NCBI GenBank assembly: GCA_903844155.1
Contig: CAIMSU010000318.1
Span: 1-32,890, forward strand
Length of the DNA: 32,890 nucleotides
Direction of reading: 5' to 3'
Source of the DNA: an uncultured Pseudomonadota bacterium
GTDB lineage: Bacteria > Myxococcota_A > UBA796 > SXON01
Part shown: positions 144 through 12,532 of the stretch, in pieces
Layout: every line of letters begins with the position of its first letter
Numbering within the stretch: the stretch's first letter is position 1
The notes under the pieces: model-generated
What the model saw: only the letters and a program-made list of their open reading frames with translations
Told to the model about the DNA's origin: nothing
Database searches by the model: none
Translations under genes and position numbers: made by a program

Positions 144-1406
144 TCACGGACACTCCGCCGTCCCGCTACAATCCGGATCGTCGCAGTCCGTCAAGCCGTC
201 GCTGTCGTTGTCGGTCCCATCGGCGCAGTCGGTCTCAGGTCCCGGAAGGCACGCGGTGTCCGTCCCACAGTCGGGATCGTCACAGTCGACAAACCCGTCG
301 CCATCGTTGTCGACACCGTCGCCACAATCGGTCTCGGGGGCGGCGAGGCAGGCGGCGTCCGGGCCGCAGTCCGGGTCGGCACAGTCGATGAGCCCGTCAC
401 CGTCGTTGTCGAGGCCGTCCGTACAGTCGATCTCGGCGCAGGCGGGGTCGGCGCTGCACTCGGGATCGGCGCAATCGGTCAGACCGTCGCCATCGTTGTC
501 GACACCGTCGGTGCAGCTCACCTCGGCGCAGGCTGGGTCGCTGCCACAGTCGGGGTCGGAACAGTCGGTCAGGCCATCGGCGTCGTTGTCGACGCCGTCG
601 GTGCAGGCAAGCTCGGCGTAACAGGCCGGGTCGTCGTGGCAGTCGGGGTCGGTGCAGTCGATCTCTCCGTCGCCATCGTTGTCGACCCCGTCGGTGCAGT
701 CGGTCTCCAGAGGTGGCAAGCAGGCATACGACGCCGCGCAGTCGGGATCGTCGCAGTCGATGAACCCGTCGCTGTCGTTGTCGAGGCCGTCGATGCAGGC
801 GGTCTCCGGGACGGCCGCACACTGGGGCGTGCCCGAGCAGTCCGCATCGTTGCAGTCGGTCTCCCCGTCATTGTCGTTGTCGACGCCGTCGTCGCACACG
901 GCCTCCGTGCCATCGGTCGAACACTCCGGCGTCCCCACACAGTCCACGTCCGCGCAATCGATCATGCCGTCGCCGTCGTTGTCGAGGCCGTCGGCGCACG
1001 CCGTCTCCGGAATGGCGCAGGCCGGGTCGGTCACGCAGTCGGGGTCCGCACAGTCGACGTGGCCGTCCTGGTCGTTGTCGACGCCGTCGGTGCAGTTGGC
1101 CTCGTGCGCGGGCACGACGCACCCCTCGGCGTCCGCACAGCCATCGTCGGCACAGTCGATGAGGCCGTCGCCATCGTCGTCGACGCCATTGGTGCAGTCC
1201 TTCGCCATGGCACTTTCGAGGTGCCAGAACGGGCCAGTGTCGACGGCGTTTCCGCTGTCGGCGGGACTGGAGTCTGCTGCGGCCGAGTCAGGGACGCCGG
1301 ACTCCGCGGCGGGCGTGGATGTGCAGCCCGACGCCATCATCGCGAAAACCAGCGCAACCGAAAGGCCGAGCAAGGGGAAGCGAGGACGCGCGCGATCACC
1401 GGGCAT
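144..1406 (-). CDS. Lipoprotein with 11 DNDGDG/Cys calcium-type repeats
   Basis: Predicted 420-residue surface lipoprotein. The signal peptide ends in a lipobox (ASGC, Cys28) and is followed by an Asp/Ser/Thr-rich linker. Nearly all the remainder is 11 tandem units of about 30-37 residues, each with the pattern C-x-D-G-x-D-N-D-x-D-G-x-x-D-C-x-D-x-D-C. The D-x-D-x-D-G core resembles Ca2+ loops of thrombospondin type 3 or dockerin repeats, so calcium-dependent folding is likely; the paired cysteines could form disulfides. The first unit has DDD where the others have DND. No enzymatic domain is visible. I chose ATG at 1406; an in-frame GTG at 1421 adds five residues. Neither start has a clear Shine-Dalgarno. 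The exact role (adhesin, matrix or stalk protein) is unknown. Confidence 0.85.
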   Translation of the reverse strand: MPGDRARPRFPLLGLSVALVFAMMASGCTSTPAAESGVPDSAAADSSPADSGNAVDTGPFWHLESAMAKDCTNGVDDDGDGLIDCADDGCADAEGCVVPAHEANCTDGVDNDQDGHVDCADPDCVTDPACAIPETACADGLDNDGDGMIDCADVDCVGTPECSTDGTEAVCDDGVDNDNDGETDCNDADCSGTPQCAAVPETACIDGLDNDSDGFIDCDDPDCAASYACLPPLETDCTDGVDNDGDGEIDCTDPDCHDDPACYAELACTDGVDNDADGLTDCSDPDCGSDPACAEVSCTDGVDNDGDGLTDCADPECSADPACAEIDCTDGLDNDGDGLIDCADPDCGPDAACLAAPETDCGDGVDNDGDGFVDCDDPDCGTDTACLPGPETDCADGTDNDSDGLTDCDDPDCSGTAECP

Positions 1407-1474
1407 GAAGCATCGTAGCACCGCCAGGGGCCAGACGGCGGACGGGGTGGAGGGAGCGCAGAGCGCAGCGACGA

Positions 1475-1533: not shown

Positions 1534-1552
1534 TCGCCGCGCAAGACATGCT

Positions 1553-1572
1553 ATCGTCCCGTACAGGAAGAT
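1553..1572. promoter_or_regulatory. hipBA operator box 3, overlapping the hipB ribosome site
   Basis: ATCGTCCCGTACAGGAAGAT is a 20-base imperfect palindrome (16 of 20 positions symmetric). Its right arm contains AGGAAG (1565-1570), which also serves as the Shine-Dalgarno of hipB (ATG at 1576, five bases on). A protein bound here would sit just upstream of the hipB start. Confidence 0.6.
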
Positions 1573-1575
1573 CCG

Positions 1576-1833
1576 ATGCCCCCCGCCACCCCTGGCCTGC
1601 GCGCCACCCAGGTCCACACCCCGGCCGATCTCGGCTCAGTCATCCGCACGTCGCGCAAGGAACAAGGCGTCGACCAGTTGACGGCTGCGGGGCTCTCCGG
1701 CGTTGGGCCAAGATTTCTTGGCGAGCTGGAGCGCGGCAAGGAGACGCTGAGGCTCGCGCTGGTCCTTCGCGTGCTGGAGCGCCTCGGGCTCGACGTCTGG
1801 ATCGTGCCGCGCGGCGAACGGCCTCCGGAATGA
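1576..1833 (+). CDS. hipB: HipB-like antitoxin, XRE-type helix-turn-helix
   Basis: An 85-residue DNA-binding protein of the type paired with HipA kinases. The helix-turn-helix spans about residues 17-70: 'LGSVIRTSRKEQGVDQ' opens the domain, and 'GPRFLGELERGKETLRL' matches the recognition helix and the E-x-G-K turn common in this family. The start is supported by AGGAAG five bases before the ATG. The last codons overlap hipA by four bases (ATGA), so the two are translationally coupled. In characterised systems HipB neutralises HipA and represses the operon by binding upstream palindromes; three such boxes lie at 1475-1572. Family assignment is strong; repression here is inferred. Confidence 0.9.
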   Translation: MPPATPGLRATQVHTPADLGSVIRTSRKEQGVDQLTAAGLSGVGPRFLGELERGKETLRLALVLRVLERLGLDVWIVPRGERPPE

Positions 1834-3083
1834 CGGGGGAGCTGGAGGTACGGTTCGAGGACGGGTTGGTCGGGCTCATCACCGCAGATCCCGAATTCCG
1901 CCTCACCTACGCCGCTGAATGGCTGGCTCGCGCAACCGCGTTCCCAATCTCCGTGAGCCTGCCGCTGCGCAGTGAACCCTGGGGCGGGCCGGTCGCAGCG
2001 GCCTGGTTCGGGAACCTGTTGCCAGAGGGCGCGGCGCGACAGGCTGTCTGCGGGCGCCTCGGGATCTCGGACGACAATGATCTCGCCCTGCTGCGGGCAA
2101 TTGGCGGGGAGTGCGCTGGCGCGCTCACGATCATCGATCCGCGCGCATCGCCATCGCTCACGACCGACGGGGCTAAACCCGAGGAATTGGACGGCCGCGC
2201 CCTCTCCGCCGTGGTCGCGAGCGGCGCTGCACCCCTGCTGATCGGCGGCCCAGGCCTACGGCTCTCGCTCGCCGGGGCCCAGAACAAGCTCCCCGTCACG
2301 CTCGTCGACGGTCGAGTCTGTCTCCCCAGCGCCGGCGCAGCCAGCACGCACCTGCTGAAGTTGCCGCACCCACGATTCGCTCACCTGCCGATCAACGAGG
2401 CGTTCGTCATGGGGCTGGCCGCTCACATCGGCCTTGACGTGGCACACGTCCAGGTGTTCACCGGCACCACGCCGCCGAGCCTGCTCGTCGAGCGCTACGA
2501 CCGCGTCGTCGCCGCTCCCAACGCCGGTGTGCGTCGTCTGCACCAGGAGGACTTCTGCCAGGCGACAGGCCGATCAGCGGGCCGCAAGTACGAACAGGAG
2601 GGCGGACCGTCGCTCGCCGAGGGTGTGTCGCTCGTCGCCCGGCACACCACAAGGCCGCTGCCGGACGTGAGGCGCCTCCTCGAATGGCAGGCGTTCAACC
2701 TCATCGTCGGCAATTGCGATGGACACGGCAAGAACCTGTCGTTGCTGCGCGAGGGCGGCGGGCTCCGGCTCGCACCGTTCTACGATCTACTGTCCACACG
2801 GCAATACCGGGTCCTGGACCGAAACCTCGCGATGTCGGTCGGCGGTCGCCGCGACCCCGACGTCGTCCACCGCGCCCAATGGCAGGCCCTTGCCCGCGAC
2901 GCCTCCTTCGCCGAGCGATTCGTCCTCGATCTCGTCGGCGCAACGGTTCATCGGGTCATGGACGGACTCTCGGCGTGGACCGAGGCGTTCAGCGCGACGA
3001 ACGGGCGCCAGGCGATCATTCCCACACTGCCAAGGTGGATCGCGAAGAACGCCATGGCGGCGGGGCGACGCGCGCAGGGATGA
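1830..3083 (+). CDS. hipA: HipA-like serine/threonine kinase toxin
   Basis: A 417-residue HipA-family kinase. The N-terminal HipA subdomain covers about residues 5-105 and the kinase part about 140-375. Visible motifs are the Gly-rich 'SLAGAQNKLPV' (146-156), the 'QEDFCQATG' segment (239-247), the catalytic 'NCDGHGKN' (295-302, Asp297 as likely base) and the metal-binding 'FYDLLST' (Asp319). All key positions appear intact, so an active kinase is expected. E. coli HipA phosphorylates glutamyl-tRNA synthetase; related HipA/HipT kinases hit other tRNA synthetases, so the target here is open. The gene starts inside hipB (ATGA overlap). It ends five bases before the stop of the convergent gene at 3089. 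Confidence 0.92.
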   Translation: MTGELEVRFEDGLVGLITADPEFRLTYAAEWLARATAFPISVSLPLRSEPWGGPVAAAWFGNLLPEGAARQAVCGRLGISDDNDLALLRAIGGECAGALTIIDPRASPSLTTDGAKPEELDGRALSAVVASGAAPLLIGGPGLRLSLAGAQNKLPVTLVDGRVCLPSAGAASTHLLKLPHPRFAHLPINEAFVMGLAAHIGLDVAHVQVFTGTTPPSLLVERYDRVVAAPNAGVRRLHQEDFCQATGRSAGRKYEQEGGPSLAEGVSLVARHTTRPLPDVRRLLEWQAFNLIVGNCDGHGKNLSLLREGGGLRLAPFYDLLSTRQYRVLDRNLAMSVGGRRDPDVVHRAQWQALARDASFAERFVLDLVGATVHRVMDGLSAWTEAFSATNGRQAIIPTLPRWIAKNAMAAGRRAQG

Positions 3084-3088
3084 CCGGC

Positions 3089-4315
3089 TCATCCCCCCAC
3101 CAGAACCCGCCCCTCGCCCGTCCCCAACGTCACGCTCGTCACCGCCCCAAGCTCCGGGTCCAAATACGTCCCGCCAAGCTCCACCGTCGCGCCGTCGCTC
3201 GTCGACGGGTTCACGACCACGATCCCGCCCGAGTACCTTCGCACCCACACGACGCCGTCCAGCACGGCATCCTCGACGGGCAGGCCGATGTCCGGACCCC
3301 ATTCGGCGCTGTACGGGTCGCCGCTGCCCTCGTAGTAGCCCCACGAGGTATCGCTGACCCCGTCCCACGCCAAAAGCCAGCTTGCTCGCCCGTAGCGCTC
3401 GCCCGCGACCGCGCCCTCAGCGCCCGGGCCGTAGGTGAGCGCGTAGTACGCGACGCCCGCGGACTGCGCTGCCGTCATCGTGTCGAACGTCGCCTGCCAG
3501 TCGACGCCGACGAAGTTGGCCGAGTCGTCCCAGCGCATCCAGTATTCCCGCATCCACGCCGAGATGTAGGGGAGCATCGCCTCGGATTGCGCGAGCATCG
3601 TGGCGTCCCAGGGGTTCATGCCGATGTTTGGGGCGACGAGCAGACCCGCGGACTTCAGGGTTGGCCCGACCGCGGCGACGAACCCAACGGTCGCGTCACC
3701 GTAGGCCTCGTCCGTCGGATATTCGGCGATGGACGTGCCAAGGGAGCCGAGGCAGTGACCGGGGAAGGTGTTGGTGTCATCCATCATCACACCATCGAAA
3801 CCGTCGGCGGTCACGCGCGCCTGCACGTCGGCGCGCCAGCGCGCGCGGTAGTCGTCGTTCCCGACGTTGGCGGCCCAGACCCCGGCGTAGTCGCAGAACT
3901 TCAGGCGGTTCCCGGCGGCGTCGTGGAGAAACCAGGATTCGGCGGCTTCATCGGTGCGAACGCCGGTGGAGGGGTGGGCGTCGCCGTCAGCCCGCATCCC
4001 GCCGACCTTCTGATACGCGAGGATGAGGGCGTCGGGATTCACGGCCCGGATCGCCGGGAGCAGCGTGTACATCGACTCCTGCAGCAGGATCACGTTGTAC
4101 TCGCCGGCGCCCGTCGCCGTCGGCACGGTCGCGTCGTCCCAGGACTGGGCGACGAGGAGGCCGCGGGGACCGGCGAGGTCGATGCCGCTGTCGCCGGGAG
4201 CGGAGTCAGACCCGGCACTATCGGACGTGGCGCCCACGTGCGAGCCGTCTGGCGCCTCGCTCACACCCTTCGCGGTGCAGCCGAAGAGCACCCCGAGGAG
4301 CCCGAGCGCGAGCAC
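3089..4315 (-). CDS. TIM-barrel glycoside-hydrolase-like lipoprotein
   Basis: A 408-residue predicted lipoprotein: a 12-residue hydrophobic signal, lipobox Cys13, then a linker rich in Ser, Asp and Gly. From about residue 50 it looks like a (beta/alpha)8 hydrolase of the GHL15-type 'hypothetical glycosyl hydrolase' group. 'DGFDGVMMDDTN' carries a pair of acidic residues at the end of a predicted barrel strand, and 'NIGMNPWD' and 'AYYALTYGPG' are typical of later strands. A C-terminal beta domain (about 340-408) follows. Substrate is unknown. The start is GTG at 4315; no longer start codon was found nearby upstream, so the signal is unusually short and uncharged. It begins eight bases after the stop of the upstream gene, so it is probably the last gene of that run. 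A second barrel protein of similar style lies at 31150. Confidence 0.72.
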   Translation of the reverse strand: MLALGLLGVLFGCTAKGVSEAPDGSHVGATSDSAGSDSAPGDSGIDLAGPRGLLVAQSWDDATVPTATGAGEYNVILLQESMYTLLPAIRAVNPDALILAYQKVGGMRADGDAHPSTGVRTDEAAESWFLHDAAGNRLKFCDYAGVWAANVGNDDYRARWRADVQARVTADGFDGVMMDDTNTFPGHCLGSLGTSIAEYPTDEAYGDATVGFVAAVGPTLKSAGLLVAPNIGMNPWDATMLAQSEAMLPYISAWMREYWMRWDDSANFVGVDWQATFDTMTAAQSAGVAYYALTYGPGAEGAVAGERYGRASWLLAWDGVSDTSWGYYEGSGDPYSAEWGPDIGLPVEDAVLDGVVWVRRYSGGIVVVNPSTSDGATVELGGTYLDPELGAVTSVTLGTGEGRVLVGG

Positions 4316-4323
4316 GCCGCCCG

Positions 4324-6093
4324 CTACTGGACGGTGCGCGCGGACGTGATGACGCTCATCTCGCCAAGATCGACCGCGCCGCTGGAGATCCAGTCGTTGT
4401 ACGCGCCGTCTGTCGTCTGGACGGCGGTGACCTCGACCGTCGCCGTGGCCTTGCCGAACGTCGAGAACGCCGCCGGCAACGTGCCGGTCCAGGCACCGCT
4501 CGGGACGAACAGGTCGTAGACGTGGTGGTGGCTGTCCGTGAACCGCACGCGGACGATGGCGGCAGCGGTGTCCGTGGTGACACCGAGCGCGCTCGTCGCC
4601 GGGTCCCAGGCGTCGATCGACGCGATGGCCTGAAAGGGCGGCAGGGTGATGCTGCCGTCCGCCGCGACGGAGGCGAAGCTCGACGCCGACTGGCCGCCCG
4701 AGCCGATGCCACCGACCTCGGCGAACGCCATCACGCCGCTGTCGACCGTGTCGAGGACGGAGCCCGAAGGCACCGTTTCGACGTTGGCGGTGCTCGTCCC
4801 GGTGGTGAGCCCGGTGACCATCCAGCCGTCGTTCACGTCCTCATCCGCCGCGAACACAAGCATGCTCTCGTCGCCATGAAAACCGATGGACAAGGCGGGG
4901 AGCGTGACGGAGAGCGTGTCCGAGAAGGGCGTGGCCGGCGCGATGTCCAGCTCGCTCTGGGTCGCGGCCACGGCGGTCGCGCCGGTCGCGTAGCCCCACG
5001 CCATGTTCGGCATGTTCGCGATCATCAGGTTGAGCGCGTCGGCGGTGCTCGTCGTGCCGCTCGACACGTCCGAGTCCTTGATCGGCCCGGCGAAGCCCCA
5101 GCTTCCGGCGTTTCCAGGCCAGGCGTTGCAGTAGTAGTCCTCGGCGCTCCCCTCGATGATGAGGTTGGACGGCAGGCTGACGGTCACGCCGAAGACGGTC
5201 ACGTCGCGCTTGTCGCTGAACAGGTCGTCCGTCGTCAGGAGCGCGAGCGGCCGGGTCTGGCTGGGGACGACGACGCCGACGGCCATCTCGTCGAAGGCGG
5301 GTGCGGTGACGCCGGTGAAGTCGACGTTGCCGTGCAACGTGGCGTCGTTGCTGCCGAGGTCCTGCGGCCAGAGGTACATCGCGACGCTGCGGGAGGTGAC
5401 CGCAGCGTACGAGACGATGGCGTAGGTGTCATCGACGTAGGCGGTGACGTTGGCGGGGCCGCCATCGGGGACGGGGGCAGTTGCCAGGCCGGTCGCGTCC
5501 GTGCGCGCGGTGCCGACGTCCGTCTTGACCTTCGCGCCCTCGATCGGCAGGCCGGTCGACGCGTCGTAGACCATGACGATCATCGCGTTGTCGTCGAGCA
5601 CCTGCACCGTGACGGGCGTGTCGATGCTGCCGAGGACGGCGTGCAGCGTCGTAGAGCCGACGGCCAGACCGGTGACGAGGCCGGTCGCGTCCACGCTTGC
5701 GATGGTACCGTCGTCGACGGACCAGGTGGGGACGACGTCCGTGCGCGTGCCGTCGGTCGCGGTTGACACTGCGCGTTCCGTCCAGGTCGCGCCGACGTCG
5801 ACGGTGATGGAGGCCGGGTACACGTCGAGGGTCGCGGCCGGGGCGGTGCCGGTGTCGCCCGAATCCGCGGTGCCGGAGTCGGCGGGTGCTGAGTCGTGAT
5901 GTGTGTCGTGGTCGGTGTCGTGGTCGGTGTCGTGGTCGCTGTCAGCCGAGTCGGTCGAGTCGATGACCTGCGAGGTGTCGTGCGAGGCGTACCCGGTGTC
6001 GCCGCCGCTGTCGGCCGCCTTGTAGGCGTTGGAGCAGGCGCCGAGGAGCACGAACGCGACGGGCATCGAGAAGGACAGGAGAGAACGGGTCAT
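4324..6093 (-). CDS. Lipoprotein with BIG2-type Ig domain and His/Asp linker
   Basis: A 589-residue predicted lipoprotein. The signal 'MTRSLLSFSMPVAFVLLGAC' ends at Cys20. Residues about 28-85 are a linker of Asp, Ser, Thr and His containing a perfect DHDT tetrapeptide repeat. A bacterial Ig-like (BIG2) domain follows at about 88-165, with the 'ASVDATGLVTGLAVGSTTL' signature. The next segment, 'AMIVMVYDASTGLPIEGAKV', resembles a carboxypeptidase-regulatory-like beta domain. The C-terminal 350 residues are a large secreted domain I cannot name. It lies 31 bases after the 6125 gene and eight before the 3089 gene. Function is unknown; an extracellular structural or binding role fits the domains. 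Confidence 0.75.
   Translation of the reverse strand: MTRSLLSFSMPVAFVLLGACSNAYKAADSGGDTGYASHDTSQVIDSTDSADSDHDTDHDTDHDTHHDSAPADSGTADSGDTGTAPAATLDVYPASITVDVGATWTERAVSTATDGTRTDVVPTWSVDDGTIASVDATGLVTGLAVGSTTLHAVLGSIDTPVTVQVLDDNAMIVMVYDASTGLPIEGAKVKTDVGTARTDATGLATAPVPDGGPANVTAYVDDTYAIVSYAAVTSRSVAMYLWPQDLGSNDATLHGNVDFTGVTAPAFDEMAVGVVVPSQTRPLALLTTDDLFSDKRDVTVFGVTVSLPSNLIIEGSAEDYYCNAWPGNAGSWGFAGPIKDSDVSSGTTSTADALNLMIANMPNMAWGYATGATAVAATQSELDIAPATPFSDTLSVTLPALSIGFHGDESMLVFAADEDVNDGWMVTGLTTGTSTANVETVPSGSVLDTVDSGVMAFAEVGGIGSGGQSASSFASVAADGSITLPPFQAIASIDAWDPATSALGVTTDTAAAIVRVRFTDSHHHVYDLFVPSGAWTGTLPAAFSTFGKATATVEVTAVQTTDGAYNDWISSGAVDLGEMSVITSARTVQ
5903..5938. repeat. Perfect 12-base tandem repeat, three copies
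   Basis: GTGTCGTGGTCG is repeated three times without mismatch on the plus strand. On the coding minus strand it encodes the DHDT repeats in the linker of the 4324 lipoprotein. The unit is a multiple of three, so copy-number change would lengthen or shorten the linker without breaking the frame. Confidence 0.9.
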
Positions 6094-6124
6094 TTGGCAG
6101 TCTCGGAGGAGTGGGATGGGACCG

Positions 6125-6502
6125 TCAGGGCACCGTGAAGCGTGCGAAGAACGGCGCGACTACCTCGCCGGTGGGCGTTGCGCACGTCCCATCCACGGTG
6201 AGCGCGTAACTGTACCCGGTGTGCAGCGGAATGTCGTGGTCTAATTTGAGCTTCTGGTCGGCCGAGCTCCACGCCGGGGTCGTCTGGACGGCGGATACGA
6301 CCTCGTCCCGGTCGTTCACGACCGAGAGCGTGGTCGCCTGCGCGCACGCGTCCTCGCCCGCCGCCTCGGAGAACCGCACCTCGGGCACGGCGACCTCGAC
6401 GACATCGGCCTCGCCGTCGACCGGCGTCGATCCCAGGACGTGAAACCCGCCGCTGTCCAACGTCGGCTCCTTCACGCACGCGAGTGCGACAAGCAGCATC
6501 AT
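6125..6502 (-). CDS. Small Ig-like lipoprotein
   Basis: A 125-residue predicted lipoprotein. The signal is very short (Cys9 from ATG 6502; an upstream GTG at 6508 would make it Cys11). The rest reads as a single bacterial Ig-like domain: 'STPVDGEADV', 'VPEVRFSEAAGEDAC' and 'LHTGYSYALTVDGTCATP' match the pattern of SbsA-type Ig domains (Big_5), in which 'P-x-D-G-x' and 'V-F-S-E' are common. The start ATG at 6502 shares one base with the stop of the preceding gene (TGATG), implying coupled translation. Its function is unknown, probably as part of the same envelope assembly as its neighbours. Confidence 0.68.
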   Translation of the reverse strand: MMLLVALACVKEPTLDSGGFHVLGSTPVDGEADVVEVAVPEVRFSEAAGEDACAQATTLSVVNDRDEVVSAVQTTPAWSSADQKLKLDHDIPLHTGYSYALTVDGTCATPTGEVVAPFFARFTVP

Positions 6503-6924
6503 CACCACGTCTCGCTCGTGAACCGCGTGCCGAGCACCCAGCTCGCCTCGTCGCTGCTGACCGGCTGCCCGTCAGCCGCGCACGGGGTGGTCCGCTTGTC
6601 CTGCGGCGCCTGCACCCACGCCGTCCCGACATCAAAAACAACCGGTCCGACCCCGCCGATCACCGCCCCGGACGTGTCCGTGAAGTCCAGCGTCACGGTG
6701 GTCGCGACATCCGCCGGCAACCCGGCGAACATCACGCGACCATTGCCAGCCCCCTCGCTGAGCAGCCCCGCGCCCTCGACGCACATGTCGATGGTCTGCG
6801 CGTCGTTCGGCACCGCGCCGACGACGTCCAGCTGCAGATCGATCGGCGAGTAGGTGATGCTCGCGCACCCCGTCAGGCCGCCGAAAACCGCCGCCAGCGC
6901 ACCCCCCGGTCGCCCGCCTCGCAC
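6502..6924 (-). CDS. Small lipoprotein of unknown function
   Basis: A 140-residue predicted lipoprotein. A longer frame open to 7002 overlaps the preceding gene, but the best start is GTG at 6924: GGGAG lies six bases upstream, the previous stop is only two bases away, and it gives a normal signal peptide ending in 'GGLTGC' (Cys20). The mature part is beta-rich ('IDLQLDVVGAVPNDAQTIDMC', 'VMFAGLPADVATTVTLDFTD') and has one likely disulfide pair. No known family is recognised. It is sandwiched with two-base and one-base spacing between two other lipoprotein genes, so it probably works with them. Confidence 0.65.
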   Translation of the reverse strand: MRGGRPGGALAAVFGGLTGCASITYSPIDLQLDVVGAVPNDAQTIDMCVEGAGLLSEGAGNGRVMFAGLPADVATTVTLDFTDTSGAVIGGVGPVVFDVGTAWVQAPQDKRTTPCAADGQPVSSDEASWVLGTRFTSETW

Positions 6925-6926
6925 GA

Positions 6927-7583
6927 TCAGCTCCCGCCGCCCGTATCCCAGTTGTAATCGGACAACTTCCACGGCTGCGTGAAGCCGGTGGTCTGCAGCC
7001 ACGCCTCACCGTATCGGGCCACGAGCCAGTAATCCCCGGCGAACAGCGGGCCCTTCGTGTTGTCACCGTCGCCATCGTCGATGGTGATGTGCGCGCAGCC
7101 GGTCCAGGACAAGCCGCCCCACAGCACCGGGCAATCTTCCGGGCCCACGTAGGTGCCCGTGAACGTCGTTCCGCCGGTCGTCGTCGTGACGGCGTCGCCG
7201 CTCACCATGTCCGCGTTCACCACGTCGATGGGCGGATCGTAGACGGTGAAGTCGGCCGTGCCCTCGGCGTATGCCTCGATGCGCACGGGCTGGTTGGATC
7301 GGACGGACCACTTCACCGCGTAGAGCAACGTGCCGTCATCCTTGGAGTATTCGAGGGTGTAGGTGACGCGCGTGTCGGACGCGGTCTCGACCGGCTGGAC
7401 CTCGTGGGTGAGCATGTGCCAGGTGACGTTGGTCGAGTCGTCGTTCACATACTCGGCGTCGCGGCTGCCGTCGGACGGGAAGAAATCGGCCATCACCGTA
7501 CCATTCCAGGAATCGGTGGGCGGGCCGCCGCAGCCGGCGAGGAGGGCGAGGGCGACGGGAATAGCGACCGGGAACAAACGCAT
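6927..7583 (-). CDS. Lipoprotein of unknown function
   Basis: A 218-residue predicted lipoprotein, 'MRLFPVAIPVALALLAGC' with lipobox Cys18. The frame is open to 7865, but that upstream part runs into the end of the TldD-like gene and does not look coding, so ATG 7583 was chosen. The mature protein appears all-beta, with Asp- and Thr-rich loops, one 'DDGDGDNTKG' segment that could bind a cation, and two nearby cysteines (about residues 155 and 166). No family is recognised. The gene follows the TldD-like gene by about 100 bases and precedes the 6502 gene by two. Confidence 0.68.
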   Translation of the reverse strand: MRLFPVAIPVALALLAGCGGPPTDSWNGTVMADFFPSDGSRDAEYVNDDSTNVTWHMLTHEVQPVETASDTRVTYTLEYSKDDGTLLYAVKWSVRSNQPVRIEAYAEGTADFTVYDPPIDVVNADMVSGDAVTTTTGGTTFTGTYVGPEDCPVLWGGLSWTGCAHITIDDGDGDNTKGPLFAGDYWLVARYGEAWLQTTGFTQPWKLSDYNWDTGGGS

Positions 7584-7686
7584 GGGACGCTCGGTGCGAA
7601 GGGTTCGCTGGGAGATACCACCGGAAGGCGGCGATTGGCAAGGGGAGAGCAGGCCGCCAGCCCCGAAGGGCCGACGACGCCTGGGA

Positions 7687-9393
7687 TCACATGCCCGGGG
7701 GCGGGAGGATCGGCGGCCGATCGTTGGCTTTCTCGCGGCGTTGAACCTCGACTTCACCGATGAGCAGGCTCGGGGACGACGCGCTGACAGGCACCCAGCC
7801 GCTCTCTGCCCCGCAAACGCCGTTGAACACGTCCACGTCGTCACCCGCGGCCATGATCCGCTCAAACGTCGTCAATGGCGTGCCGATGAGGTCGACGCCG
7901 CGCACCAATTCGTCCGGTCGCCCGTCCGGGTACACCCGCCAGACGACGACGGGCTGCACCGCAAAGGCGTTCGGCTCGCTGCGACCGGTGAACGTGAAGC
8001 CGCCGGAGATGTCGTCAAAGATGAGGCCAAAGGGCTTCTTCTGCTTCTTGACCTCGTCGATCAGCATCGTCCGCAGCGTCGCGTACGGCACCGTTTTGGA
8101 CGCCTCGACCATCAAGTTGCCCTGCCGCGGCGTGACCGCCATCCCCGCCTGTCGTCGACCATGCCCGTTGGACGCCGGGAAGTTGTCGATCGGCGAGCGC
8201 GACATCAGAAAGTTGCGGAGGATCCCGCCCTCGACCAACGAGACGCGCTGCGCCGGCACGCCCTCGTCGTCCCACCGGTACGTCCCGTTCAGGTCGATCC
8301 CGTTTCGGGACGGCATCGTTGGGTCGTCCGACACACTCAGGAAGTCCGGCAGGATGTGCTGGCCAACGCGGCTGGTGAACGTCTGGCCTTCATCCTCGTC
8401 CTTCTGGCGGTGCCCCTCGATGCGGTGACCGAAGATCTCGTGGAAGAAGACGCCCGCAGCACGTCCGCGCAGGATGGCCGGACCGCTGTACGGGTCGACG
8501 ATGGGCGCGTGCCGCAGCGCCGTCACCCGCTCGGCCGCGCCCGTCGCCATCGCGAGGATCTTCGCCGCGTCTGGCAAATGATCGAGCGATTCGACGTCCA
8601 CGTAGTCGTAGACCTGCAGCTCCATGCCATCCTCGGCGACCGTGTCGGCCCAGGTCGCCACGCGGTAGTGATGGAAGCCATCCGTGATCCGCGTGCCCTC
8701 GCTCGTCGCGAGCCAGCGGTGGTTCGTATCGGCGACGAGCTGTACGCCGCTGTCGTAGACCTCAGGAAACTTGAGGTAGACCGAGGATGTTTCCGTCAGC
8801 AGCTTCCGCCAGGCGGCCTCATCGAGCGGGACGTCCGGGACCGGCACGTAGCCCTGGACGGGCCGCGCGGGCGAGAAGTCGTCGCTTTGATCCTCGCGGA
8901 GCACCTTCACGGCGTCGTTGGACTTGATCTTGATGAGCTGGCGGCGGGCGGCGCGCCACGAGTCGTCAAGACCGCGGAGGAGGGCTTGCTCGATGACCAT
9001 GGGGTCGTCCAGCAGCGGCGGCGTGACCTGGACCCGCTCGGGCTGCTCAAAAAAGCCGGCGTCGCGGAGCTTGTGCGTATTGTCAAGCTTCATCGTGCCG
9101 ACGCGCACGTCCACATCCCCGGTGCGATGGTGGTTGTGCTGCACCCCGGCCCAGGTGCCGTTGGAGCCCTGCAGGATCGTCGAAGCCTCGTCGGTGACGG
9201 CCAGCTCCGTGAAGTAGGGCGCGTCGTCCTGCCCCTTCGTCTGCGCGGCGAGGCTGTCGAGCGTGGCGTTCAATGCCGACATTACCGCGTCCGGCGCGGC
9301 GGCTGCGGTCGGGAACTCTGCCGCGTGGACGGTGACGACGAGCGTGAGGGCCGGGAGGACGGCGAGCAGGACAACGGTGCGGCGATGAGTCAC
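7687..9393 (-). CDS. Secreted TldD/PmbA-family metalloprotease homologue
   Basis: A 568-residue TldD/TldE-family protein carrying an N-terminal export signal (residues about 1-24, 'VVLLAVLPALTLVVTVHAA'). The zinc motif is 'HEIFGHRIEGH' (from 318), a form of the family's HExxxH-G-x-E-G-D box; Glu319 would be catalytic. Cys527 in 'CGAESGWVPVSASSPSLL' fits the third ligand position known in E. coli TldD. E. coli TldD/TldE is a cytosolic pair that trims microcin B17 and degrades CcdA. This copy is predicted to be exported and has no TldE partner in the window. It begins with GTG at 9393. Neighbours on both sides are lipoproteins, so envelope proteins or peptides are plausible substrates, which is inference. 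Confidence 0.88.
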   Translation of the reverse strand: MTHRRTVVLLAVLPALTLVVTVHAAEFPTAAAAPDAVMSALNATLDSLAAQTKGQDDAPYFTELAVTDEASTILQGSNGTWAGVQHNHHRTGDVDVRVGTMKLDNTHKLRDAGFFEQPERVQVTPPLLDDPMVIEQALLRGLDDSWRAARRQLIKIKSNDAVKVLREDQSDDFSPARPVQGYVPVPDVPLDEAAWRKLLTETSSVYLKFPEVYDSGVQLVADTNHRWLATSEGTRITDGFHHYRVATWADTVAEDGMELQVYDYVDVESLDHLPDAAKILAMATGAAERVTALRHAPIVDPYSGPAILRGRAAGVFFHEIFGHRIEGHRQKDEDEGQTFTSRVGQHILPDFLSVSDDPTMPSRNGIDLNGTYRWDDEGVPAQRVSLVEGGILRNFLMSRSPIDNFPASNGHGRRQAGMAVTPRQGNLMVEASKTVPYATLRTMLIDEVKKQKKPFGLIFDDISGGFTFTGRSEPNAFAVQPVVVWRVYPDGRPDELVRGVDLIGTPLTTFERIMAAGDDVDVFNGVCGAESGWVPVSASSPSLLIGEVEVQRREKANDRPPILPPPGM

Positions 9394-9420
9394 CCCGCGG
9401 GCGTATCGCGGGCACGGCCG

Positions 9421-9966
9421 TCAGGGCCTTGGCATCCACCGGGGCCACCAACGCGGCGGTTGCCAGGGCGGCCGAGGAAAGCCCGAAAACGGCGCCACCG
9501 TGCACGTTCCCGTGGACGTGCTCTCGTAGTGCTGGCTCGCGGGATCGCCCGCTTCGAACACCTCGACGCGATGCATGGCGCCCGTCGTGCTGTCGATCAC
9601 GAGGTCGTCCTTGTTGTCGCCCGCGAACATGGAATTCCAGTTTCCCGGTCGCCGGGTGTGCGCGGCGTGGTCCTCGTCGGCCAGGGCGTCGTCGAAGTGG
9701 TACTCAAGCGACGACGGCGTCACGACGTGAAGGTGGTACACGGCCGGGCAGTCGTCCTCGCAGAACTCCCGCGTCGCCGGGTCGACGCGCAGGCGGGTAG
9801 CGAACGTGTCATCGCGCGGGGGTGAACGCGAGGCCGTCCGATGGCGCGTCCCCGCACACTGGAGATCGAAGGCCTGAGGGTGCGACGCGCATGAGGACGT
9901 CGAGAGCATCGCGATGGTCGGGGCGAGCCCGAGGACAACGCGAACAGAGCGGCGAAGAGGCGGCAT
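9421..9966 (-). CDS. Small lipoprotein of unknown function
   Basis: A 181-residue predicted lipoprotein with a basic n-region (RRSVR), a hydrophobic core and lipobox 'STSSC' (Cys26). Features include 'REFCEDDCPAVYHLHVVTPSS' with a CxxxC pair, an Asn/Asp-rich stretch 'NWNSMFAGDNKDDLVID' and a Trp/Pro/Arg-rich C-terminus (PPWQPPRWWPRWMP) that could be a flexible tail. No family is recognised. It starts 11 bases after the marR stop and ends 27 before the TldD-like gene, so co-transcription with both is likely. Confidence 0.65.
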   Translation of the reverse strand: MPPLRRSVRVVLGLAPTIAMLSTSSCASHPQAFDLQCAGTRHRTASRSPPRDDTFATRLRVDPATREFCEDDCPAVYHLHVVTPSSLEYHFDDALADEDHAAHTRRPGNWNSMFAGDNKDDLVIDSTTGAMHRVEVFEAGDPASQHYESTSTGTCTVAPFSGFPRPPWQPPRWWPRWMPRP

Positions 9967-9977
9967 GCCCGCCGACT

Positions 9978-10445
9978 CTACCCCTTCAGCGCGCGCTTTT
10001 CCAGCACCGCCAGCAACACGGTCAGATCCCCGTGGAGCCGCGAGAGCCGCTCCGACCCGAGCTCCCCCTCCAGCTCCCCGGCCAGGCCGAGCAGCACGGC
10101 TAGCCCCTCTCGCACGCCCGCCAGCCCCCGAGCCGAGAAGCGCACGAGATGGGCGCGCCGGTCGGAAGGGTCTGGCAGTCGCTCGACGACGCCGAGCTCC
10201 TCCATCTCGCCGAGCAGCACGCCGACCGCCTGCTTGCTGATCCCGAGCCGTCGGGCGATCACGGTCGGGCGAACGCCGACCGCGTCCAGATGCGGGAGCA
10301 CCTGGGTGTGTGACAGCCGCGCGCTGGGGTTCGTCCGCTGGATCTCGGCGATGGCGGCCTCGTTGTAGAGCCGCGCCGCCCGAAACAGCACCTGCCCCAG
10401 CGAGGCCCGCTTCAGCGCTTCGATGTCGGCTGGCATCTGCGGCAT
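9978..10445 (-). CDS. MarR-family transcriptional regulator
   Basis: A 155-residue winged-helix regulator. The recognition region 'TVIARRLGISKQAVGVLLGEMEELGVVERL' is followed by the wing 'PDPSDRRAHLVRFSARG', the D-x-R signature of MarR proteins; helices for dimerisation flank it. The frame is open to 10472, but AGGAGG seven bases before ATG 10445 fixes the start. MarR proteins bind palindromes in their own divergent promoter and release on ligand binding. A perfect 8+8 palindrome lies just upstream (10456-10473), in the promoter of the divergent DUF4336 gene, so both genes are likely its targets. The genes downstream on the same strand may be in its operon. Confidence 0.9.
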   Translation of the reverse strand: MPQMPADIEALKRASLGQVLFRAARLYNEAAIAEIQRTNPSARLSHTQVLPHLDAVGVRPTVIARRLGISKQAVGVLLGEMEELGVVERLPDPSDRRAHLVRFSARGLAGVREGLAVLLGLAGELEGELGSERLSRLHGDLTVLLAVLEKRALKG

Positions 10446-10455
10446 CGTCAACCTC

Positions 10456-10473
10456 CTTGACGAGTTCGTCAAG
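10456..10473. promoter_or_regulatory. Probable MarR operator palindrome
   Basis: CTTGACGAGTTCGTCAAG is a perfect inverted repeat: 8-base arms around GT. It sits between the divergent marR and DUF4336 starts and overlaps the -35 and spacer of the promoter at 10457-10485. Size and place match MarR-family sites. Binding by the neighbouring MarR protein is inferred. Confidence 0.75.
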
Positions 10474-10485
10474 AGCCTTTACTAT
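10457..10485 (+). promoter_or_regulatory. Sigma-70-like promoter of the DUF4336 gene
   Basis: TTGACG (10457-10462) and TACTAT (10480-10485) are separated by 17 bases, close to the housekeeping consensus. Transcription would begin near 10492. GAAGGAG (10494-10500) then serves as ribosome site for ATG 10506. The operator palindrome covers the -35, so a bound repressor would block polymerase. Confidence 0.65.
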
Positions 10486-10505: not shown

Positions 10506-11225
10506 ATGCCTACACTTCGCCCCCTCGCCGATGGCCTCTGGTGCGTCGACCACCGTGAATTCTCGGTTGGCGGCCTGCAGATCGGCACGCGCACGACCGT
10601 CATCCGCCTCTCGGACGGCACCCTCGTCGTCCACTCACCCGGGCCGCTGTCGCCTGCGAACTTCGACGAAATCCGGGCGATCGGCCTCGTCTCCCACGTG
10701 ATCGCTCCCAACCGCATGCACAACCTCTACTACGCAAGCGCCTGCGCGGCGTTCCCCGACGCCTCCCACCTCGCCGTCCCCGGCTTCAGCCCGAAGCAGC
10801 CCGGCGCCCGCCTCGACGGCATCCTCACCGAGACGCTCCCCGCCTCGCTCGCTGGCGATCTGGAGGCCATCCCGCTCCTCGGCGCCGCGAAGCTCAACGA
10901 GCTCCTCCTCTTCCACCCGTCCACCGCGACCCTCCTCGCCGTCGACGTCGCATTCAACATCCGAAACGCCACGGGCTTCCTCCATTTCGCGATGTGGCTG
11001 AACGGCGCCAACGACCGGTTCTGCATGACGCGCCTCGGCAAGTCCCAGTACCTCGACGACCACGCTGCCAGCGCCAAGAGCGTCGATCGCGCCTGCGACG
11101 CGTGGCCGATCGAGCGCGTGGTCGTGGCGCACGGGGAGGTGCTGGAAACGGGCGGGCGACTAGCACTTCGGGACGCCTACGCGTTCGGGCGGGTGGCGAA
11201 GAGCTACTCCGCCTCACAGATGTAG
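10506..11225 (+). CDS. DUF4336 protein, metallo-beta-lactamase-like fold
   Basis: A 239-residue predicted cytoplasmic protein of the DUF4336 family, which is related to metallo-beta-lactamase-fold enzymes. Characteristic stretches are 'LWCVDHREFSVGGLQIGTRT', 'LVVHSPGPLSP', 'VSHVIAPNRMHNLYY', 'LLFHPSTATLLAVDVAFN' and 'ERVVVAHGEVLE'. The full HxHxDH zinc motif of classical members is not present, so catalytic activity is uncertain. The start is firm (GAAGGAG five bases before ATG). It is divergent from marR and shares its operator, so expression probably responds to the MarR ligand; a role in stress or detoxification is possible but not shown. Its 3' end overlaps the convergent lectin gene by 22 bases. 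Confidence 0.82.
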   Translation: MPTLRPLADGLWCVDHREFSVGGLQIGTRTTVIRLSDGTLVVHSPGPLSPANFDEIRAIGLVSHVIAPNRMHNLYYASACAAFPDASHLAVPGFSPKQPGARLDGILTETLPASLAGDLEAIPLLGAAKLNELLLFHPSTATLLAVDVAFNIRNATGFLHFAMWLNGANDRFCMTRLGKSQYLDDHAASAKSVDRACDAWPIERVVVAHGEVLETGGRLALRDAYAFGRVAKSYSASQM

Positions 11226-12532
11226 TACGTCGTGGCCGTGCAATCGGCGTCGTTCCACTGGCCGTCCAGATAACCGGTCAGACCAGCACAATCCTCGCCC
11301 GGGTACATGCCGCTGTTGCTCGGCTCGCCGGTGTACCAGTCCGTGTACGTCGAGGCCGACCCGTCGTCCCAGACAAAGTGCCCCTCGCTGGCGATGTCGT
11401 TGTACCCGATCCACCAGACGGTCCCGCCGTAGTCCGTCGCGATCGCCCAGAGGTAGGCCTGCTCCGTCGCGTCGTTGATGGTGACGAGGTCGTAGTTGTA
11501 GGTGTTGCAGGCGAGCTTTGCGTCGGCCCAGGTGACCGAGGGACCGCAGAATTGGTAGGTGTGGCCCCCGTCGTACTCGAGCGCGCAGGGGCACGGCGCG
11601 TCGTCGTCGATGACGCCGTCGCAGTTCTCGTCCACACCATCGCAGGCCTCGGCCACGCCGGGGTTTTCGGCGGCGTCCGCGTCGTCGCAGTCGGTGTTGT
11701 CGGCGACGTAGCCGGCGGGGGCGGTGCAGCCCAAGGCGGTCGTGGTGGCGACGCCGTAGCCATCGCCGTCCGCGTCCAGGTACCAGGTGGTTGGGTCGAC
11801 GGCGTCCTCGTCGACGACACCGTCGCAGTCGTCATCGATGCTGTTGCAATACTCGGGCGCGCCAGGGTGGACCGTGGCGACGGCATCGTCGCAATCGCTG
11901 TCGTCGGCCACCCGACCGGCCGGCGCCGAGCATGCCAGGACCATGTCGGCACGGTCGCCGTACCCGTCCACGTCCGCATCCTCAAACCAGGCCGCAGCAT
12001 CGACGGCGTTGTCGTCCACGACGCCGTTGCAGTCATCATCGATGCTGTTGCAATACTCGGGAGCACCTGGGTACACGCTCGCGTCTGCGTCGTTGCAGTC
12101 GTCCCCGACCGCCGCGAAGCCAGGCCCGACCGTGCAGACGGCAGCCGGCTCGCCGACGCCGTGGTCGTCCTCGTCTGAATCGACGTATTCCGCGACCGTC
12201 ACGCCCTCGTCCACGTTCCCGTCGCAGTTGTTGTCAACGCCGTCGCAGACCTCGATCGCCGCGGGCGAGACGGCGGCTTCGGCGTCGTTGCAGTCTGGCC
12301 AGCCGCATGATTGTGCCGGGTAGCCGTCGCCGTCGACATCGCAGGGGTCGGGGCCAGTGTCGGCATCCGTGTCCGTGTCCGCGTCGGCATCCGTGTCCGC
12401 GTCGGTGTCGGCATCCGTGTCGGCATCGCCGTTTGTGTCGGCAGTGACTCCAGAATCCGTGACGACCCGATTCTCCACCGCCGACTTCGGGATGTACAGG
12501 CAGGCCGGGACCAGGACGAGGAGTAGCTTCAC
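11204..12532 (-). CDS. Lipoprotein with MopE-type metal-binding repeats and C-type lectin domain
   Basis: A 442-residue predicted lipoprotein (Cys11, short signal; GTG start). After an Asp/Thr/Ala linker (about 25-60) come four MopE-type 'putative metal-binding' repeats (about 62-320), each with a D-x-D-x-D-G loop, 'DC-[DN]DADA', 'P-G-A-x-E-x-C' and 'D-D-x-C-x-G-x-x-D'. The C-terminal 115 residues are a C-type lectin-like domain: 'YQFCGPSVTWADAKLAC', 'WWIGYND', 'EGHFVWDDGS', 'DWYTGEPSNSG' and 'GQWNDADCTATTYYICE'. The WND motif is present, but the sugar-contact site reads EPS in place of EPN or QPD, so specificity cannot be predicted. Likely a surface binding protein. Two middle repeats are a recent duplication (204-base period). 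Confidence 0.88.
   Translation of the reverse strand: MKLLLVLVPACLYIPKSAVENRVVTDSGVTADTNGDADTDADTDADTDADADTDTDADTGPDPCDVDGDGYPAQSCGWPDCNDAEAAVSPAAIEVCDGVDNNCDGNVDEGVTVAEYVDSDEDDHGVGEPAAVCTVGPGFAAVGDDCNDADASVYPGAPEYCNSIDDDCNGVVDDNAVDAAAWFEDADVDGYGDRADMVLACSAPAGRVADDSDCDDAVATVHPGAPEYCNSIDDDCDGVVDEDAVDPTTWYLDADGDGYGVATTTALGCTAPAGYVADNTDCDDADAAENPGVAEACDGVDENCDGVIDDDAPCPCALEYDGGHTYQFCGPSVTWADAKLACNTYNYDLVTINDATEQAYLWAIATDYGGTVWWIGYNDIASEGHFVWDDGSASTYTDWYTGEPSNSGMYPGEDCAGLTGYLDGQWNDADCTATTYYICEAE
11832..12061. repeat. 204-base duplication inside the MopE repeats
   Basis: A 26-base stretch is identical at 11832-11857 and 12036-12061, 204 bases (68 codons) apart. Flanking sequence is similar but diverged. 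It marks two MopE repeats that were duplicated more recently than the others. Confidence 0.8.
12357..12440. repeat. Imperfect hexanucleotide repeat in lectin lipoprotein linker
   Basis: Degenerate GTGTCG/GCATCC-type 6-base units on the plus strand encode the alternating Asp-Ala/Asp-Thr linker of the lectin lipoprotein. The 6-base unit keeps the reading frame when copies are gained or lost. Confidence 0.75.

Follow-up and report, generated by a model that had tools for sequence, protein, structure and literature searches.

A predicted exported TldD-type metalloprotease, its separately encoded partner and an unrelated lipoprotein module in an uncultured bacterium

The window is the whole 32,890 nt stretch of DNA which we have analyzed (contig CAIMSU010000318.1 of assembly GCA_903844155.1). 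Eight consecutive ORFs, all on the (-) strand, are found between positions 3089 and 10445 (Table 1). All of them look like coding sequences according to the GC content of their codon positions, with GC3 values of 0.84–0.93. They correspond to the eight same-strand genes proposed in a preliminary description of this DNA, made from the sequence alone. The MarR regulator, the glycosidase-like lipoprotein and the two Ig-like lipoproteins which it recognized all have the Pfam matches expected of them. It also counted six lipoproteins: Five clear lipoboxes are present (LAGC, LTGC, ALAC, LGAC and LFGC), while the sixth candidate, the 181 aa protein, has only a marginal one.

Table 1. Genes of the 3089–10445 region, in the direction of the (-) strand. 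"None" indicates no Pfam family above the cut-off.
Gene product	Position	Strand	Lipobox	Pfam match
MarR-family regulator	9978..10445	-		PF12802, 9.8e-12
Predicted exported protein, 181 aa	9421..9966	-	TSSC (marginal)	None
Subunit A, predicted exported TldD-type metalloprotease, 568 aa, GTG start	7687..9393	-		PF19289, 4e-29
Lipoprotein 1 of the four-gene module, 218 aa	6927..7583	-	LAGC	None
Lipoprotein 2 of the module, ~140 aa	6502..6924	-	LTGC	None
Lipoprotein 3 of the module, Big_5 Ig-like	6125..6508	-	ALAC	PF13205, 2.2e-5
Lipoprotein 4 of the module, Big_2 Ig-like, 589 aa	4324..6093	-	LGAC	PF02368, 9.9e-9
GHL15 glycosidase-like lipoprotein	3089..4315	-		PF14885, 6e-25

Several other genes of the window deserve mention. 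Positions 1548–3083 (+) code for what we take to be a HipA-like kinase; a small helix-turn-helix ORF resembling HipB lies just ahead (1576–1833), and both presumably form a HipBA toxin-antitoxin-like system. At 144–1421 (-) a lipoprotein is encoded in which acidic double-disulfide repeats occur eleven times (NF033662, E 1e-107). The gene at 11204–12532 (-) presumably codes for a MopE-like protein made of acidic repeats; judged by eye, its C-terminus looks similar to a C-type lectin domain.

The TldD homologue, which we call A, contains HEIFGH at residues 318–323 and a candidate third ligand, Cys527, within NGVCGAES. In the alignment both coincide with the metal ligands which PMC5810440 describes for E. 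coli TldD. In our reading of the alignment, the salt bridge formed by Asp272 and Lys456 in the E. coli protein is replaced by His328 and Ala529, so active-site details may differ between both proteins. The PF01523 domain is not detected in A by sequence comparison, and in its own genome this domain is only found in the cytosolic TldD/TldE pair (contig C162). Nevertheless, an AlphaFold model of A, obtained from 28 natural sequences (mean pLDDT 86, pTM 0.84), has E. coli TldD as its best Foldseek match (5njf_A, E 3e-31). A comparison with VIA-align gives a Z of 31.6, with 447 aligned residues and a rmsd of 3.6, while Z is about 27 for TldE chains. The match to the TldD fold spans residues 30–554, in spite of the undetected PF01523. 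Motif, Cys ligand and fold place A in the TldD (M103 metalloprotease) superfamily, its peptidase activity being predicted. The view of A as an exported TldD homologue thus agrees with its PF19289 match, its intact catalytic motif and a signal-peptide-like N-terminus after the GTG start, export remaining a prediction. A further PF19289 protein is found in the same genome, outside both pairs (L006, G000:C113:120294-120905).

The scores of A fall well under the curated TldD cut-offs NF008006 and NF040952: 59.2 vs. 513 bits and 65.7 vs. 635 bits. Since these cut-offs are missed while the catalytic motif is intact, an undescribed member of the superfamily, active in envelope proteolysis or peptide processing, is plausible. 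This part of the original suggestion of an undescribed envelope proteolysis or peptide-maturation system stands; its other part, a single system formed with the neighboring genes, does not.

We have searched for A in 58 genomes, its own and those of 57 relatives. A close A is found in nearly all of them, and in most A-bearing genomes outside the window's genus it is adjoined by a weaker match, about 30% identical. This second protein, which we call B, follows A, has a signal-like N-terminus and lacks HExxxH. The preliminary description considered A to be a TldD without a partner, and proposed to look for a TldE homologue elsewhere. A TldE-like partner is found in the same genome: A predicted exported B, with a signal-like N-terminus and without HExxxH, is encoded on contig C172 (G000:C172:208-1950). 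Together with the abundance of adjacent B genes described below, this leads us to reject a partnerless TldD.

In each of the 11 linked pairs which we have examined in this order, the stop of A and the start of B share 4 bases; such an overlap is also frequent in loci beyond the order. From a collection of named genomes we have kept 80 loci. B lies directly downstream of A in 72 of them, and in three more (L090, L095 and L112) A and B form a single chain. The remaining five have no adjacent B: Two belong to the window's genus, and another one ends soon after A. The HExxxH motif is present in every unfused A (77/77) and in no adjacent B (0/72); each fusion has a single HExxxH, located in its A half. 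The Cys motif is found in 75 of the 77 unfused A. According to the record titles, which may err for MAGs, the loci belong to Myxococcota, Acidobacteriota, Planctomycetota, Verrucomicrobiota, Gemmatimonadota, Cloacimonadota, Eisenbacteria, Kapaibacteria, Obscuribacterales and others. A plasmid collection gave only distant TldD matches. We have not found any universal third partner beside the pair, the recurring neighbors vary from group to group. For example, ten loci, mostly acidobacterial, have downstream of the pair a permease gene which we take to be LptF/G-like from its sequence. From their motifs, A is the predicted active half of a TldD/TldE-type pair of active and inactive subunits, B being the paralogue without HExxxH. 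The exported A–B pair is widespread and apparently unstudied.

The window's genus is a particular case. In the other genera of the family, A and B are preceded by the gene of an acidic protein and followed by that of a membrane protein. This ancestral cluster is dispersed in the window's genus, where both A and B are kept: All five genomes (its own and G001–G004) contain both genes, on different contigs, and the acidic gene is found in a third, separate place. In two of these genomes a gene distantly related to that of the membrane protein persists near B. Because A, B and the acidic gene lie apart here and are clustered in other genera, A appears to have moved out of the ancestral cluster. 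It is found near lspA in the four genus-mates, one of which (G003) also has a second, linked A–B pair besides the split genes. Three members of the order lack both A and B, among the matches listed.

Both subunits are predicted to be exported: A signal-like start is found in nearly all loci, 74 of 80 for A and 66 of 72 for B. These figures come from a home-made hydrophobicity rule, which is also positive in five out of 17 TldD/TldE controls presumed to be cytosolic. One of these five has a genuine-looking Tat/lipoprotein signal and the other four score at most 1.88; exported A and B mostly score higher. We have also noticed a TldD which contains PF01523 plus a Tat/lipoprotein-like signal (L138, G007:C401; MLSRRTFLKEASVGSAMLAMPAFLAAC). 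It may represent a further line of exported TldD.

We have built a tree of 67 proteins, which has long stems and in which TldE is represented by four rows only. Cytosolic TldD and TldE fall on one side of a branch with 99/99 support, exported A and B on the other. B forms one clade (99/98), and so does A (82/67). Grouping A with TldD is rejected by the AU test (p 0.017). Since A and B appear as sisters, apart from TldD and TldE, an independent origin of the dead subunit is suggested. The pairing of an active and a dead protein has probably evolved a second time in the exported line, a conclusion which we hold moderately. We have also considered that A might be the orthologue of TldD, and B that of TldE, which is disfavored by the 99/99 split and the AU test, within the limits set by long branches and four TldE rows.

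The natural fusions give an indication of how both halves are arranged. A model of the L095 fusion, obtained from 43 unaltered sequences (1121 residues, mean pLDDT 85.8), forms one body, and its A half matches E. coli TldD with a Z of 37, a rmsd of 3.2 and 446 aligned residues. Its pTM over both halves is high (0.84), so their relative placement is confident; this value refers to the arrangement of the halves within the chain.

Both subunits are required in E. coli TldD/E, whose mechanism has been described: They form a hollow shell, short or unfolded peptides are threaded into it and trimmed without sequence specificity (PMC5810440, PMC10885120). By analogy, A and B, both exported, would assemble as a heterodimer which encloses the metal site in a hollow shell. 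Unfolded peptides would enter the shell, where A would trim them at its metal site. This would take place outside the cytoplasm, presumably in the periplasm or at the cell surface. Most lineages would produce A and B as one fused chain or, with coupled translation, from a single message; in the window's genus the genes would have been separated and both retained. The function is most likely that of an extracytoplasmic heterodimeric peptidase which trims short unfolded peptides, and we infer that its substrates are probably proteolytic leftovers or small envelope peptides. A more general proposal is that the pair represents a second, independently evolved TldD-type heterodimer of active enzyme and pseudoenzyme, a self-compartmentalising envelope peptidase which processes or clears small peptides in many bacterial phyla. 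Such a role is not known for this family. We would give this proposal about even chances.

An unlikely alternative is that the exported pair, instead of being a general peptidase, is an N-deacetylase or a RiPP-type maturation enzyme with one dedicated product. Both N-deacetylases, as indicated by a title cited in PMC10885120, and RiPP leader-removing enzymes, as far as the same source mentions them, are found in this family. However, the distribution of the pair is very wide, its clustered loci share no biosynthetic neighbor and the neighbors vary by phylum. It is still less probable that A acts alone as an exported homodimeric peptidase, B being a separate protein with another role: A and B do lie on different contigs in the window's genus, and activity has been claimed for an archaeal TldD homodimer, at least as discussed in PMC5810440, but the coupled overlap, the adjacency in 72 of 80 loci, the three fusions, the conservation of both genes after their unlinking and their joint absence from the three genomes mentioned above, among the matches listed, all argue against it.

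The genes around A have a different history. Matches to lipoprotein 1 are found in 28 of the 29 genomes searched, and to lipoprotein 4 in 22 of 29, both having clear relatives throughout the family. In most genomes they are about 1 kb apart, on contigs other than that of A. The four genes between 4324 and 7583 are arranged in the same way, strand included, in other members of the genus, the family and the order (loci L172–L185), although we have not detected lipoprotein 3 in some of the remoter genomes with the module. The module is often flanked by genes for a carbohydrate kinase of the FGGY family and for a phosphomannomutase-like protein. These four lipoproteins are therefore a separate conserved module, unlinked to TldD outside the window. 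The GHL15 lipoprotein is sporadic, being found in 5 of 19 genomes; outside the window it is never on the contig of A. Neither the MarR regulator, the 181 aa protein, the GHL15 lipoprotein nor the other lipoproteins are found near A in the four genus-mates: The gene order of TldD with respect to all the other genes is not conserved across relatives.

The MarR gene is divergent from a DUF4336 gene (10506–11225, +), and divergent regulator and target genes are a usual layout. The only promoter-like site of the region is found between them, at 10457–10485 (+), a count close to that expected by chance; terminator-like and promoter-like sites in the region show no excess over shuffled sequence.

It had been proposed that MarR, the lipoproteins and TldD form one system, led by MarR. 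We reject such an operon as a conserved unit, although the whole run may be co-transcribed in this organism. In a single co-transcribed envelope system, MarR would control TldD, the 181 aa protein and the lipoproteins, and the lipoproteins would be processed or turned over by TldD. Such a system is very improbable: It would account for the short gaps between eight genes on one strand, for a (-) strand in which we have found no terminator-like site across the region, and for products which all look exported except MarR, but TldD is unlinked to these genes in the genus-mates, the module is conserved elsewhere without TldD and with other flanks, and MarR is divergent from the DUF4336 gene, as is usual for a regulator and its target. 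The window is a junction of at least two unrelated units, because the lipoproteins are conserved as their own cluster away from A. We consider it likely that the TldD homologue is the active subunit A of an exported TldD/TldE-like heterodimer, whose partner is unlinked and which has no relation to the lipoprotein module. In this genome a rearrangement would have placed A beside that module, which is conserved independently.

We have not found any description of an exported TldD/E in the open-access literature searched. If our interpretation is right, the unusual TldD/E protease fold, known as a cytosolic peptide trimmer, extends to the cell envelope, and this would be a second independent case of a dead subunit being kept in order to build a shell. 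The genus with unlinked genes and the natural fusions make the A–B pairing directly testable.

In summary, the exported pair may be compared with two known systems. It has in common with E. coli TldD/TldE (MEROPS M103; PDB 5NJ5, 5NJC and 5NJF) the fold and the HExxxH motif with a remote Cys; the E. coli proteins are an active and an inactive subunit forming a hollow heterodimer, and the same is expected of the exported pair. On the other hand, identity is only about 20%, PF01523 is not detected in exported A, and both exported subunits have signal-like N-termini. The exported pair is often encoded as one bicistron or one fused chain, unlike the E. coli proteins, and the tree joins its two subunits to each other and not to the cytosolic TldD and TldE. 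The second system is the cytosolic TldD/TldE pair of the same genome (G000:C162), also an active/dead pair of this superfamily. In contrast to the exported pair, it contains PF01523 and its TldD has no signal-like start: The exported pair exists in addition to the cytosolic one and does not replace it.
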